The notes under the pieces are model-generated. The model was not told where the DNA came from, did no database searches, and worked only from the letters and a program-made list of their open reading frames with translations. This document shows positions 3,886 to 9,878 of a DNA stretch of 9,878 bases, in pieces. Numbering within the stretch: position 1 is the first letter of the stretch; each line of letters opens with the position of its first letter. Made by a program: the position numbers and the translations under genes. The stretch is from Alphaproteobacteria bacterium (GTDB lineage Bacteria; Pseudomonadota; Alphaproteobacteria; UBA828), in assembly GCA_029937205.1 (NCBI GenBank), contig JAPYQV010000065.1:1-9878 (forward strand), read 5' to 3'.

Positions 3886-4236
3886 ATGAACACAATGCCC
3901 GACGGTCCCGTTACTCAACGCATTCGCCAGACAATCGATACCAGCGACGTCGTCCTGTTCATGAAGGGCACGCCCGTTTTTCCGCAATGCGGCTTCTCCT
4001 CAACACTGGTCCAGGTGCTCTCGCTCATGGGCGTCAAATTCAAGGGCGTCGATGTGCTCGAGGATCCGGAAGTGCGTGACGGCATCAAGAGCTTCAGCGA
4101 TTGGCCGACCATTCCCCAGCTCTATGTCAAAGGCGAGTTTATCGGCGGCTGCGATATCGTGCGCGAAATGTATGAAAACGGCGAACTGGCTGAATTCATG
4201 ACCTCACACGGTATCGACCAGCAGCCACAAGGCTGA
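3886..4236 (+). CDS. grxD: Monothiol glutaredoxin, Grx4/GrxD family
   Basis: A 116-residue monothiol glutaredoxin. Proteins of this family dimerise around a [2Fe-2S] cluster held by the active-site Cys and glutathione, pass clusters on, and form mixed dimers with BolA. The active site is C-G-F-S at 35-38, preceded by the conserved K-G-T-P (27-30) that contacts glutathione. W-P-T-I-P-Q-L-Y (about 69-76) contains the cis-proline, and F-I-G-G-C-D-I (about 81-87) is the glutathione-binding end. The ATG at 3886 follows GAGGA at 3873-3877 with ideal spacing; a second in-frame ATG three codons on is less well placed. The gene directly follows bolA, and the next gene begins two bases after the stop. 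Confidence 0.97.
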
Positions 4237-4238
4237 AC

Positions 4239-4622
4239 ATGGCCGAAGCGGAAGCGTTGGAGCCAGCCAGCCCCGAGACGATCCGGGAATATCACGCGCA
4301 TATCTATTATGACGCCGGCACGCGGCGCGCGGCGGCGGAGTTGCGCGCGGACCTGAGCGAACATTTCGATGTGATTCTCGGTCGCTGGCGCGACGAGCCG
4401 GTGGGCCCGCACCCGGTGGCGATGTATCAGGTCGCTTTCGAACCGGCTGTTTTCGCCGAATTTTTGCCCTGGCTGATGCTCAACCGGCGTGGTTTAACAA
4501 TTCTGGTGCACCCCGATACCGGCCATGATGTCCCTGATCACGAAGATCATCCTTTGTGGCTCGGCGAAAAGCTCGATCTCGATATCGACAAACTGCGGGA
4601 TTTTGTGAGTAAGAGCGCCTGA
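4239..4622 (+). CDS. DOPA 4,5-dioxygenase family protein
   Basis: A 127-residue protein of the DOPA 4,5-dioxygenase family, small cytosolic proteins related to an enzyme that opens the catechol ring of DOPA; most bacterial members have no proven substrate. Family hallmarks are Y-H-A-H-I-Y-Y-D (18-25, His19 and His21 as likely metal ligands), G-P-H-P (56-59), W-L-M-L-N-R-x-G-L (78-86), I-L-V-H-P-D-T-G (88-95, His91) and D-H near 100 followed by W-L-G (107-109). Length is normal. The start is only two bases after grxD, so it is almost certainly cotranscribed with bolA-grxD. Whether this reflects catechol chemistry under iron or redox control, or only convenience, cannot be told from sequence. 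No convincing terminator follows in the 149-base gap before the convergent carbonic anhydrase gene. Confidence 0.88.
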   Translation: MAEAEALEPASPETIREYHAHIYYDAGTRRAAAELRADLSEHFDVILGRWRDEPVGPHPVAMYQVAFEPAVFAEFLPWLMLNRRGLTILVHPDTGHDVPDHEDHPLWLGEKLDLDIDKLRDFVSKSA

Positions 4623-4771: not shown

Positions 4772-5590
4772 CTAATTTGAACCGATCAAAAGTCGCGCAT
4801 TGAGCGGCTGAACCGGGCGCGCATTGGGTGCGGCGGTATCTTCGAATTTCTTGATTTGCGCAGCACTCATGCTGATCGGCTCGGAAAGCACGAACCAGCG
4901 TACGCCTTCGCTGCACGGCGGCGTGGTGAGCGAGCCCTTATAGTGGTAATAGCGCCCGTCGGCCGGCAGCACCGCGCTCGCATTGACGCTCACATCCGCC
5001 ACCATCTGCGCCGCCGTCTCGTGCGCCGGGAGATGCGCCCAGGCATCGGCCAGCGCCGCATTGGCCGCCCCTTCCTCGATCATGACGCCAATTACGGCGA
5101 GCCCGCCATGGCTGTCCTGATGAACGAAATGGGCCTCCATGGGATAATGCTTGCCGCCAACCGTATGTTCGCTCGGCGCGTGAAAGTGGAACTGCAACAG
5201 GTCATATTTTTCACCCTCGACGGACATGCTGCTGCCCGGTGCGTAGTTCAGCTGAACGGTGTGGCCATTGTGGAGGATGCTGAGCGGCGTTTCCTGATAG
5301 GCATAGTCATTGCCCGAGATGCCAACGGAGAGACCTGTGGCGTCCGCCGCAATATCGATCGGCGACTGCATGCGCCCAGCCTTACAGGCGGTATAATCCG
5401 GCGATAAATCGCCCCAATGCTCCGGCCCGTCGGCGCCGTCATAGCTCCAGTGAGCGGCGGCGTGACCATCGCCTGCATCGCCATGATCTTCTTCATGATC
5501 GCCTTCACCATGGCTTTTAAGCGGCCATAGGGATAGCGCAACGATCGCGGCAACGGCGATAAGCAAAGCGAAATGATCGAGCTTTATCAT
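4772..5590 (-). CDS. Alpha-class carbonic anhydrase, exported
   Basis: A 272-residue alpha-carbonic anhydrase, which interconverts CO2 and bicarbonate, here probably in the periplasm. The N-terminus has a Lys at 3 and a hydrophobic segment at about 7-22, a signal peptide or anchor with no obvious A-x-A cleavage site. Residues 27-47 are a His/Asp/Glu-rich linker. By alignment with human CA II, the zinc ligands are His135 and His137 in Q-F-H-F-H and His154 in E-A-H-F-V-H, the gate pair is Glu141 and Thr222 (L-T-T-P-P), and the proton shuttle is His110 (N-G-H). Cys69 and Cys226 match the disulfide of bacterial members, supporting export. A purine-rich AAGGGG precedes the ATG. The family is often about 245 residues; the excess is the linker. 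It is transcribed alone, convergent with the dioxygenase-family gene. Confidence 0.96.
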   Translation of the reverse strand: MIKLDHFALLIAVAAIVALSLWPLKSHGEGDHEEDHGDAGDGHAAAHWSYDGADGPEHWGDLSPDYTACKAGRMQSPIDIAADATGLSVGISGNDYAYQETPLSILHNGHTVQLNYAPGSSMSVEGEKYDLLQFHFHAPSEHTVGGKHYPMEAHFVHQDSHGGLAVIGVMIEEGAANAALADAWAHLPAHETAAQMVADVSVNASAVLPADGRYYHYKGSLTTPPCSEGVRWFVLSEPISMSAAQIKKFEDTAAPNARPVQPLNARLLIGSN

Positions 5591-6460: not shown

Positions 6461-7252
6461 TTATTTATCGCCCTCGCCAGGTGGCGGACGGCTCAGCGCC
6501 TTGAAGATGCCGAACAGGCTTTGGACGTCCTGCTGAGACAGCTGAATGCGCTGAAACATGTTGCGCATGTTGCGCGCCATTTTGGGCTGCATGGCCGGCG
6601 TGGGATAAAAATCTTTTTTCTTAAGTTCGTCTTCCAACATATTGAAAAAATTTATTATTTCAGACTTAGTTGCGGTCGGGCTTTGACCCGCCGCCGGCGC
6701 CTCTTGCAGCGAAATTTCGCCCCCGGCCGTGCGCCATTCATAGGAAAGGATCAGCACCGCCTGAGCCAAATTCAGCGACGAAAATGCCGGATTGAGCGGC
6801 ACTTCGATAATGGCATCGGCGAGCGAGACATCGTCATTGTCGAGGCCGCTGCGTTCCGGGCCAAACAGGATGCCGGCGCGTGCCTCGGGCCTGGCGCGGA
6901 GAGACTCCGCCGCCTGACGCGGCGTCAGGACCGGCTTGACCATCTCGCGCCCGCGCGCCGTCGTCGCATAGACGAGATCAAGCTCGCCAACCGCATCGGC
7001 GACCGTGTCGAAAATCTGCACCCCGCCGATTACCGCATCGGCACCCGAGGCGGCGTTTAGCGCCTTGACGTTGGGCCAGCCGTCGCGCGGCGCGACGATG
7101 CGCATGTCCATCAGGCCACAATTCAGCATGGCGCGCGCCGCGGTGCCGATATTCTCGCCCAATTGCGGGCGCACGAGAATGATGGCCGGCCCGCCGCTGA
7201 GCGCGAAATCCGACGCTTCGGTCTTGGCTTTGCGGCGGTCAGTTCCCGCCAT
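6461..7252 (-). CDS. trmJ: tRNA (cytidine/uridine-2'-O-)-methyltransferase, TrmJ/SpoU family
   Basis: A 263-residue SPOUT-class RNA methyltransferase. TrmJ methylates the 2'-O of the nucleotide at position 32 of the tRNA anticodon loop using S-adenosylmethionine. The three SpoU motifs are present: P-Q-L-G-E-N-I-G-T-A-A-R-A-M (29-42, with the conserved Asn and Arg), G-I-L-F-G-P-E-R-S-G-L (127-137), and V-P-L-N-P-A-F-S-S-L-N-L-A-Q-A-V (151-166), which form the knotted cofactor site. The part after about 190 is a helical tail seen in TrmJ; its F-F-N-M-L-E-x-E-L segment fits this subgroup better than TrmL or TrmH. The start overlaps the end of the upstream gene by 14 bases, indicating coupling. 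Exact tRNA target and base preference are inferred from family only. Confidence 0.9.
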   Translation of the reverse strand: MAGTDRRKAKTEASDFALSGGPAIILVRPQLGENIGTAARAMLNCGLMDMRIVAPRDGWPNVKALNAASGADAVIGGVQIFDTVADAVGELDLVYATTARGREMVKPVLTPRQAAESLRARPEARAGILFGPERSGLDNDDVSLADAIIEVPLNPAFSSLNLAQAVLILSYEWRTAGGEISLQEAPAAGQSPTATKSEIINFFNMLEDELKKKDFYPTPAMQPKMARNMRNMFQRIQLSQQDVQSLFGIFKALSRPPPGEGDK

Positions 7253-8846
7253 TCGCTTGGCGTTTCAAATCGTCGCGCAGCAGCTTGTAAACGATGCCGT
7301 CATGGAGCGCGCTGTAGGAGGCGTCGATTACATTGTCCGAGACACCCACGGTCGACCAATTGTCGACGCCGTCGGTGGAATCGATCATCACCCGGATGCG
7401 CGCCTTGGTGCCGCCCTCGGAATTCAGGATGCGCACCTTGTAATCGATCAGGCGAAGATCATCCAGCGCCGGATAAACATCGGCGAGGGCCTTTCGGAGG
7501 GCGACATCGAGGGCATGCACCGGCCCCGCCCCTTCGGCCACCATCATGTGGCGGTTCTGCCCGACCTGTACCCGCACGGACGCCTCCGAGAGGGTAACGA
7601 GGTCGCCGCGCGGATCGATGCGGCGCTCATCGATCACGCGGAAACTATCGAGACGGAAGAAGTTGGGCAGCGTCCCCAGGCTTTTTCGCGCCAGCAACTC
7701 GAAGCTCGCATCGGCGCCACCGTAATCGAGCCCGTCGCGCTCATTTTCCTGCAAGGTTTCAATCAGGCGCAAGGTCGCCGGATCATCGCCATCGGCCGCA
7801 AGGCCGAGGGCTGCCAAACGGGCGAGATAGTTGCCCTGTTCCACTTCCTCCTCAGACGCAATACGGCGCTGATTACCGACCGCCTGAGGATCAATATGCT
7901 CGAAACGCGCAACCGTTGCTGCCATTGCGGCGCCGTAGAGGCCTTCGCCATGGCTAAACGCCTGGGCGCCGACGAACGGTGTCCGGGTCTGAGAGGGTTG
8001 GTTCAGGCGCGCATCGACAAGCTGCGACACGGCGCTAAGGCGGCTCATTTTTTCCGCCGTCACAGCCGCCTCGAATCCCATCTTCAGCACCAAATTGGGG
8101 ATTACAACGGCCAGGTCCGCATTGCCGCAGCGCACACCGAGCGCGTTAAACGTGCCGTGCACCTGATGGGCGCCGACGCGCACGGCGGCCAGGCTACCGG
8201 CCACCGCATTGCCGCTGTCATTCAGGCATTCGATGCCGATATGGCTGCTCGGCAGTGCCTTGGCCACTTCTTCAACAATTTCGGCGATCTCATGCGCCAG
8301 GGTGCCGCCGTTGCTGTCGCACAGCACCACCCAGCGCGCGCCATGAATATAGGCGGTTGCCGCGCACTCAAGCGCGTAGTGCGCATCGGCCTTGAAGCCA
8401 TCGAAAAAATCACCGCACAGGAACATTGTCTCCTCGGCCCACCCGGCGATGTGCGACACGCTCTCGGCGATCATATCGATATACTCGCGTGCCTCGGCGC
8501 CAAACTGGGAGCGCGCGTGGCCCTTGGATGCCGTACCTGCCAAGGTGACGATGCGTGCGCCGCTCGACCGTGCCCGGGTGAGGGCCGGATCGCCGGCGGC
8601 GCTGTCGCCGAGCGATTGCAAACGCGACAGTGCGGTCAGGCGCGCGTGGTCGTATTTGGGCGCGGCGGCGAACAGCGCATCGTCGCCGGAGCGCGAACCC
8701 GGCTGGCCGCCTTCAACATAATCGACGCCGAGGCCATCCAATGCCTCGGCGATGGCCAGTTTGTCGGCGGTGGAAAATTCGCCACCATCCTGCTGCGCGC
8801 CTCTGCGCAGGCTGCAGTCGTAAATATATATCTGCTTGTTCGCCAT
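7239..8846 (-). CDS. Citramalate synthase-like protein lacking the catalytic and metal-binding residues
   Basis: A 535-residue protein with the full layout of CimA: a TIM barrel (about 5-270), a linker, and a LeuA-type regulatory domain (about 395-523). True CimA condenses acetyl-CoA and pyruvate to (R)-citramalate for isoleucine synthesis. Similarity is clear in V-D-Y-V-E-G-G-x-P-G-S (41-51), F-F-D-G-F-K-A (147-153), L-C-D-S-N-G-G-T-L (175-183), N-D-S-G-N-A-V-A (209-216) and the C-terminal V-I-D-A-S-Y-x-A-L-H-D (506-516). Key residues are changed. L-R-D-G is L-R-R-G (Arg15 for the metal Asp), H-x-H is E-C-L (206-208), E-H before F-F-D-G is G-D (145-146), the Glu of G-E-R-C-G-N is Val238, and the conserved His of the G-G-L-H motif is Tyr304. 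Arg14 and Asn242 remain. The ATG at 8846 follows AGGGCGGG, eight bases behind cysS; an upstream ATG at 8873 lies inside cysS. No frameshift or stop is seen, so I call it intact but probably not a citramalate synthase. Confidence 0.85.
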   Translation of the reverse strand: MANKQIYIYDCSLRRGAQQDGGEFSTADKLAIAEALDGLGVDYVEGGQPGSRSGDDALFAAAPKYDHARLTALSRLQSLGDSAAGDPALTRARSSGARIVTLAGTASKGHARSQFGAEAREYIDMIAESVSHIAGWAEETMFLCGDFFDGFKADAHYALECAATAYIHGARWVVLCDSNGGTLAHEIAEIVEEVAKALPSSHIGIECLNDSGNAVAGSLAAVRVGAHQVHGTFNALGVRCGNADLAVVIPNLVLKMGFEAAVTAEKMSRLSAVSQLVDARLNQPSQTRTPFVGAQAFSHGEGLYGAAMAATVARFEHIDPQAVGNQRRIASEEEVEQGNYLARLAALGLAADGDDPATLRLIETLQENERDGLDYGGADASFELLARKSLGTLPNFFRLDSFRVIDERRIDPRGDLVTLSEASVRVQVGQNRHMMVAEGAGPVHALDVALRKALADVYPALDDLRLIDYKVRILNSEGGTKARIRVMIDSTDGVDNWSTVGVSDNVIDASYSALHDGIVYKLLRDDLKRQANGGN

Positions 8847-8854
8847 ATCCCGCC

Positions 8855-9878
8855 CTACCCGGCACGCCGCCAATCGGTGCTGCCGTCCGGCCTATCCTCC
8901 AGGATGATGCCATTTTCGGCCAGGGCATCGCGAATATTATCCGCCGCCGCGAAATCCTTGGCTTTGCGTGCTTCCAGCCGCAGGCTGATTTGCGCCTCGA
9001 TATGGCCGACATCGCTCTCCGCTTCGCCGCCCTTGAACCAGGCTTCCGGGTCTTTCTGCAAAATACCGAGAGTGTTGGCGCTGGCGAGCAAGTTTGAACG
9101 ATGCCCAGCGCATTCAGAAACGTTCATCTTCGACAGGTCATCGGCCTGACGCTCGAGAACACTCAGGGCCATGGGCGTATTCAGGTCATCATGAAGTGCG
9201 GCAAGAAATGGGTCGCCTTCCGCTGAATTGGCAGATTCTTGTGCACTTGGCGCGCCTTCGGTTTTCTGCAGCACACGATAGAGCCGATCGAGGCGCGTGC
9301 GCGCCTGTTGCACACCCTCTTCCGTCCAATCGAGCGGATGGCGGTAGTGGGTACTGAGCATCATCAGGCGGAGAACTTCGCCCGGCGCGCCTTCGAGAGC
9401 CTGGCGGATGGTGATGAAGTTGCCGAGGGATTTGGACATCTTCTCGCCATTCACCGAGAGAAATCCGTTGTGCACCCAATGGCGCACGAAATCATGGTCC
9501 GGGCAGGCGCATTCGCTTTGCGCGACTTCGTTCTCGTGGTGCGGGAAGATCAAATCGGCGCCGCCGCCATGAATATCGACGGTCAGCCCGAGATGCTTGC
9601 GGCTCATGGCCGAGCATTCGATATGCCAGCCCGGCCGGCCGCGGCCCCACGGGCTGTCCCAGCCCGGCAGGTCGTCAGAGCTTGGCTTCCACAGAACAAA
9701 ATCCGCCGGGTCTTGTTTGTAGGGCGCGACTTCTACGCGCGCGCCGGCCACCATTTCCTCGCGGTCGCGGTGCGATAGCTTGCCGTAATTGGGGTTTGAC
9801 GGCACATGAAAAAGCACGTGCCCGTCCTTAAAATAGGCGTGCTCCTTGTCGATGAGCGTTTCGATGATCTCGATCATC
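8855..9878 (-). CDS. cysS: Cysteinyl-tRNA synthetase, C-terminal three quarters
   Basis: About 341 residues of CysRS are visible; the gene continues past the right edge, so roughly the first 120 residues, including the H-I-G-H ATP-binding motif, are missing from the window only. The enzyme charges tRNA-Cys with cysteine in the cytosol. Counting from the Met at 9877, the zinc ligands are Cys88 (W-H-I-E-C-S-A-M), His113 and Glu117 (F-P-H-H-E-N-E), with the same spacing as Cys209, His234 and Glu238 of the E. coli enzyme. K-M-S-K-S, the second ATP motif, is at 146-150. The C-terminal region with A-R-x-x-K-D-F-A-A-A-D-x-I-R-D-A-L is the anticodon-recognising end typical of bacterial CysRS. The TAG stop is eight bases before the citramalate-synthase-like gene, so cysS leads this minus-strand operon or is cotranscribed from further upstream. 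Confidence 0.97.

Follow-up and report, generated by a model that had tools for sequence, protein, structure and literature searches.

The stretch of DNA analysed here, called the window in what follows, is the 9,878-nucleotide contig JAPYQV010000065.1 (assembly GCA_029937205.1) of an alphaproteobacterium in the GTDB lineage UBA828, and it carries on its reverse strand a gene of the citramalate synthase (CimA) type. That catalytic residues have been lost from its product while selection persists is well supported. We put at roughly 55% the probability that the protein is a selected pseudoenzyme working as a regulator or scaffold responsive to branched-chain amino acids, where both the ligand and the partner are predicted from sequence. 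Of the readings considered, it best accounts for the loss of the pocket, the degeneration of the lid, the retention of the feedback domain and the newly fixed helices of the barrel. The gene and the active-site positions concerned, all on the reverse strand, are as follows.

7239..8846, reverse strand: CimA-type pseudoenzyme gene (535 amino acids), passing the cut-off of the NCBI citramalate synthase model (TIGR00977, 502.4 against 450 bits)
8805..8807, reverse strand: R14, the essential Arg of the superfamily (R89 of 6E1J), kept in all 19 rows of the clade described below
8802..8804, reverse strand: R15, replacing the metal-ligand Asp (D90 of 6E1J)
8409..8414, reverse strand: G145-D146, replacing Glu-His (145 pairs with E227 of 6E1J)
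8313..8315, reverse strand: S178, replacing the substrate-contact Thr (T257 of 6E1J)
8223..8231, reverse strand: E206-C207-L208, replacing the metal-ligand HxH (206 and 208 pair with H288 and H290 of 6E1J)
8133..8135, reverse strand: V238, replacing the Glu of GERCGN
7935..7937, reverse strand: Y304, replacing the catalytic-base His (H388 of 6E1J)
7902..7904, reverse strand: F315, replacing Tyr (Y399 of 6E1J)

The residues were mapped by alignment with 6E1J, a methylthioalkylmalate (MAM) synthase of Brassica juncea, with positions counted by hand along the alignment, in which Q18 also pairs with Q93. The original prediction, made from the letters of the window, had located losses at R15, G145-D146, E206-C207-L208, V238 and Y304; these five sites and their coordinates are correct, and the alignment places R15, G145, E206, L208 and Y304 on D90, E227, H288, H290 and H388. 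Thus the Asp-His-His ligands of the divalent metal are absent (R15, E206, L208), and so are the catalytic His, Glu and Tyr of the Claisen-condensing enzymes (Y304, G145, F315). The importance of the Glu at position 238 is taken here from general knowledge of the family. According to a MAM synthase study (PMC11532901), the metal of 6E1J is held by D90, H288 and H290; the mutants R89A/K/Q, E227A/D, H388A/Q/D/E, Y399S, T257A and Q93A/N were without activity, while E227Q, H388N, T257S and Y399F kept some, in a mutant set where the metal ligands themselves were not changed and the Glu equivalent to 238 was not included. In view of these ligand roles and mutant losses, the combination of D15R, E145G, H206E, H208L and H304Y would be expected to abolish the reaction, while T178S and Y315F, taken alone, would not. 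The protein likely makes no citramalate now. A new cysteine metal site was considered and not adopted. C144, C207 and C240 are invariant in one clade alignment, but in their strands the first two take turns with residues of the pocket, and their side chains would be expected to face away from it.

The losses were followed in an alignment of 125 sequences. Of these, 19 rows belong to the clade, namely the window's protein, 14 database proteins and four loci from its genus; the other 106 are intact relatives, made up of 27 loci and of 79 proteins out of the 127 intact ones listed. P0001 duplicates the window's own protein (99%) and was excluded; P0012 and L006 have the same sequence, and L005 matches P0009 at 98.5% identity, so the 19 rows represent about 17 distinct proteins. 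The fragments P0014 and P0121 were counted in a 17-row conservation set and excluded from the paired-identity comparison and from the 19-row tree and alignment; both are without the intact signature, and the N-terminal part of P0121 aligns poorly. Two CimA-type genes of other families carry one in-frame stop each, a TGA in L016 (G051) and a TAG in L055 (G065), which may stem from sequencing error, decay or recoding, and L016 was used with its stop read as X. The signature comprises nine positions (14, 15, 145, 178, 206, 208, 238, 304 and 315), which are R-D-E-T-H-H-E-H-Y in intact enzymes. It is complete in 153 of the 154 relatives (127/127 listed intact proteins and 26/27 loci); the 27th locus is without its N-terminus and has the remaining six residues. 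None of the 19 clade rows has it: D15, T178, H206, H304 and Y315 are lost in all of them, and E145 (P0016), H208 (P0013) and E238 (L004 of G003) are each kept in a single row. H146 is kept in 10 of the 17 rows of the conservation set. The losses go beyond the five sites first noted and include T178S, Y315F, K105, N52 and M75-R77, as well as D143 in 16 of 17 clade rows. Since the intact set consists of the best-scoring listed relatives and loci of other families and is not a random sample, rarer losses elsewhere are possible.

In the tree the clade is monophyletic with a FastTree support of 1.0, and its sister is the intact protein P0017. Only one internal branch of the tree is longer than its stem of 0.54 substitutions per site, namely the one (1.23) that separates the chosen outgroup L027. 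An error of assembly or sequencing, or an enzyme still active with shifted ligands, is hardly credible: the window does come from a fragmented genome (630 contigs, 87% complete, 6% contamination), but 18 further rows from other sources show losses of the same kinds, and no alternative ligand set was seen among the positions examined.

The gene is under selection, as judged from the ratio of nonsynonymous to synonymous substitution (dN/dS) of 0.11–0.23 for the whole gene, calculated with the NG86 method for 10 pairs from five genomes, in all of which the frame is open; with whole-gene dS of 0.58–1.17 the values are rough. By region, dN/dS was 0.13–0.24 for residues 1–285, 0.10–0.38 for the linker and 0.07–0.17 for the C-terminus. 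The single clade of the tree, the open frames, these low ratios and an overall fold predicted to be intact support the original prediction of a selected pseudoenzyme. We use the word pseudoenzyme for what was found here, namely catalytic residues lost with purifying selection and a predicted fold kept. The regions compared are as follows.

7992..8846, reverse strand: TIM-barrel (HMGL-like) domain, residues 1–285, active-site residues relaxed (PF00682, 118.5 bits)
7722..7991, reverse strand: linker or active-site lid region, residues 286–375, the most relaxed part
7242..7721, reverse strand: C-terminal LeuA_dimer regulatory domain, residues 376–535, strongly conserved

The LeuA_dimer domain passes its gathering cut-off (PF08502, 80.1 against 24.9 bits), and the post-barrel HCS_D2 domain is under its Pfam cut-off (21.1 against 27 bits). 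Barrel and linker are relaxed and the C-terminus is not, which we regard as a firm result. Among 168 positions conserved at 98.5% or more in the 79 intact proteins, 51 of the 93 barrel positions, 11 of the 24 linker positions and 49 of the 51 C-terminal positions are still kept in at least 90% of the 17 clade rows; 18 are kept by none of the 17 rows, and zero of these lie in the C-terminal domain (one of the 18, E238, survives in G003, outside the 17-row alignment). The original prediction had described the sequence between the lost sites as well kept, which is only partly right, since barrel and linker are relaxed and it is the C-terminal domain that is kept. Moreover, for pairs with a C-terminal identity of 0.85–0.90, barrel and linker identities were 0.74 and 0.53 in the clade (51 pairs), against 0.82 and 0.86 in the intact proteins (48 pairs). 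When mean divergence was scaled to that of cysS, the neighbouring gene for cysteine–tRNA ligase, the values for barrel, linker and C-terminus were 1.19, 1.95 and 0.58 in the clade and 0.71, 0.75 and 0.79 in the intact control, which was one family, that of G056 (seven proteins, cysS for six; L055, with its in-frame stop, and the partial L056 excluded), chosen because the family of G022 is a single genome. Scaled to the other neighbour, trmJ, with fewer genomes than for cysS and one trmJ being a 45-residue piece, the C-terminus gave 0.57 in the clade and 1.10 in the intact control.

Besides the relaxation, 27 positions are newly fixed in the clade, and only a few of them (12, 76, 77, 208) neighbour pocket motifs. 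Two stretches of the barrel stand out.

8439..8492, reverse strand: barrel helix 119–136, under new constraint (8 of its 18 positions do not vary in the clade)
8331..8384, reverse strand: helix 155–167 with the residues that follow it up to 172, under new constraint (12 of 18 positions do not vary in the clade)

In 12 listed intact subclades of 12–36 tips, the corresponding numbers of invariant positions are 2–5 and 3–7 (as these subclades are nested within one another, they are not independent). The residues R120, S131, W136, A163, I167 and H168 are fixed in 19/19 clade rows, and the commonest residue in intact enzymes differs at each. In the C-terminus 99 of 155 positions are invariant in the clade, compared with 58–87 in the larger and 72–117 in the smaller intact subclades; in the linker it is 13 of 90, below all 31 listed intact subclades (27–75). 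We would guess that the two helices form an outer docking surface, going by the secondary structure. That the barrel had instead acquired a new, metal-independent chemistry, as the original prediction also proposed, is improbable. Arg14 is kept in 19/19 rows and Asp10 in 15/15 aligned, and the few newly fixed positions near pocket motifs (S12, L76, Q77, L208) could be read in this way, but within the clade a wide range of residues occurs at positions 15, 105, 304 and 315, and no part is less conserved than the lid region. It is this variation of the pocket within the clade that makes a new reaction less likely than a regulator or scaffold.

Several observations weigh against the reading as a regulator or scaffold. 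In 19 listed intact subclades of 6–11 tips, the invariant positions in helices 119–136 and 155–172 number 2–12 and 5–12, which overlaps the clade. With trmJ as the yardstick, the barrel of the clade diverges just a little faster than that of the intact control (1.17 against 0.99), and at a matched cysS identity of 0.76 the C-terminal identities are 0.86 and 0.84, so that the clade is not clearly more constrained there than intact CimA. The gene was found in five of the six genomes of the genus. In the sixth, G005 (86% complete), 114 bases separate trmJ from cysS, with no cimA-type gene between them; in other genera of the family 14 of 15 genomes have no match at 1e-60, and trmJ stands beside cysS without the gene in 11, some of the other genomes being incomplete. 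The gene is therefore dispensable in places. In addition, the LeuA (2-isopropylmalate synthase) of the window's genome matches its models along its full length and so needs no lent regulatory domain, and the biosynthetic threonine deaminase IlvA (TIGR01124) was not found in G001, which is 98% complete and carries the gene. Because of this loss in a congener and absence from most of the family, slow decay is the main rival: the use would have been lost, the pocket drifted, and the gene would be heading for deletion under weak constraint meanwhile, for example avoidance of misfolding. The relaxed barrel and linker fit such a relic as well. We nevertheless consider it unlikely, as dN/dS is low with open frames in five genomes, the C-terminal domain keeps 49 of 51 positions, and 27 newly fixed positions would be unexpected.

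A cimA remnant in the 114-base gap of G005 was not accepted as real in 10 comparisons with the first or last 90 bases of five genes: for the best two, both with G002, 6 and 10 of 300 shuffles reached the score, and for the other eight 54–292 did. The placement of G005 within the genus is poorly supported in the trees (0.414 and 37). G009, of the same family, has an intact CimA of 37% identity (L027, G009:C8:10216-11757) on a different contig from that of cysS and trmJ, a separation that suggests later gain by transfer.

For the regulator or scaffold, the metabolic setting allows a possible course of events. LeuA, at 29% identity, is the only other match to the protein in the window's genome at E up to 0.001 and is over its model cut-offs, so a second CimA, sought as a check on the original prediction, was not found in this genome, which is 87% complete; G001 and G002 (98% complete) likewise have just two matches, the cimA-type protein and LeuA. 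TIGR01124 is over its cut-off in four of the six genus genomes, including the window's, and in 11 of the 21 family genomes; no match to it was found in G005 either, and in both G001 and G005 a PRK06110-type threonine dehydratase is over its cut-off. Given the threonine deaminase in the window's genome, CimA catalysis is plausibly dispensable there. We assume that catalysis became dispensable as isoleucine was made via threonine deaminase, and that the pocket then drifted. The retained product would be a dimer whose C-terminal interface binds an amino acid, with isoleucine and leucine as the likely candidates, and the signal could be passed to a partner, perhaps docking on helices 119–136 and 155–172; LeuA, the nearest paralogue, is a possible candidate for it. 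More tentatively, and at somewhat less than even odds, the whole enzyme may have been converted to a dedicated sensor of branched-chain amino acids, with the barrel as docking scaffold, the two helices as new interface and the feedback domain as signal carrier.

The regulatory domain of the Leptospira interrogans citramalate synthase (LiCMS) is part of a working enzyme. The C-terminal domain is 23% identical to it (3f6g, 3f6h), and its predicted fold matches the isoleucine-bound LiCMS domain; ligand binding is predicted here. Searched by sequence against the PDB, the domain gave no relative at E up to 10. Compared with TIGR00977-type CimA of Alphaproteobacteria, the length, domain order, cysS-cimA-trmJ gene order and passing of the equivalog score are the same, while the differences lie in a degenerate lid region and in the substitution of metal ligands and catalytic residues. 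LeuA (1sr9, 3fig) shares the barrel and regulatory domain and differs in sequence (29% identity for the genome's own copy) and in the active-site residues, which the pseudoenzyme has lost. The MAM synthases of Brassicaceae belong to the same superfamily and likewise derive from a two-part enzyme in which one half was lost; according to PMC11532901 their case is the mirror image, since they remain catalytic and have no regulatory domain any more.

The two neighbours of the gene are as follows.

8855..9877, reverse strand: cysS (cysteine–tRNA ligase), upstream, 5' part cut by the contig end (353 bits)
6461..7252, reverse strand: TrmJ-type RNA methyltransferase gene, downstream (166.4 bits, just under the cut-off of 167.15)

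Among 21 CimA loci outside the genus, surveyed with flanks no longer than 1,500 bases, cysS adjoins 11, trmJ 14, both adjoin eight and neither four. As cysS and trmJ flank cimA elsewhere in the class, the gene is taken as the positional orthologue of alphaproteobacterial cimA. The start of trmJ and the end of the gene share 14 bases, and the gene could in principle be kept mainly in cis, coupling translation of trmJ. This is very improbable, for such coupling would not preserve the amino-acid sequence, and trmJ lies beside cysS without cimA in G005 and in the 11 genomes mentioned above. Two family genomes have a second cysS-like gene (G011:C124, G013:C39). Antisense to the cimA-type gene there is a 714-amino-acid open frame (7005–9149, forward strand), probably an artefact of high G+C content. 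Elsewhere in the window, a small DOPA 4,5-dioxygenase family protein is encoded at 4239–4622 on the forward strand (PF08883, 117 bits), beside an open reading frame (3886–4236) that is presumably monothiol-glutaredoxin-like, and a eukaryotic-type (alpha) carbonic anhydrase, whose hydrophobic N-terminus may be a signal peptide, at 4772–5590 on the reverse strand (PF00194, 157 bits).

In the open-access collection that was searched, no paper pairs 'pseudoenzyme' with 'citramalate synthase' or 'isopropylmalate synthase', and none contains the phrases 'prokaryotic pseudoenzymes', 'pseudoenzymes in bacteria' or 'bacterial pseudoenzyme'. The clade is a clear and replicated case in which catalytic residues are lost and selection is not, with the intact sister P0017 available for comparison. 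It is also an annotation trap: the pseudoenzyme passes a curated citramalate synthase cut-off and the clade member P0012 is labelled citramalate synthase by its sources, so that for these genomes pathway predictions would probably list, wrongly, a pyruvate route to isoleucine. The case illustrates how a feedback-regulated enzyme may become a regulator. If conversion to a sensor is true, the route would run opposite to the one that gave rise to the MAM synthases, and the protein would perhaps be the first case of a regulatory pseudoenzyme among the DRE-TIM metallolyases.
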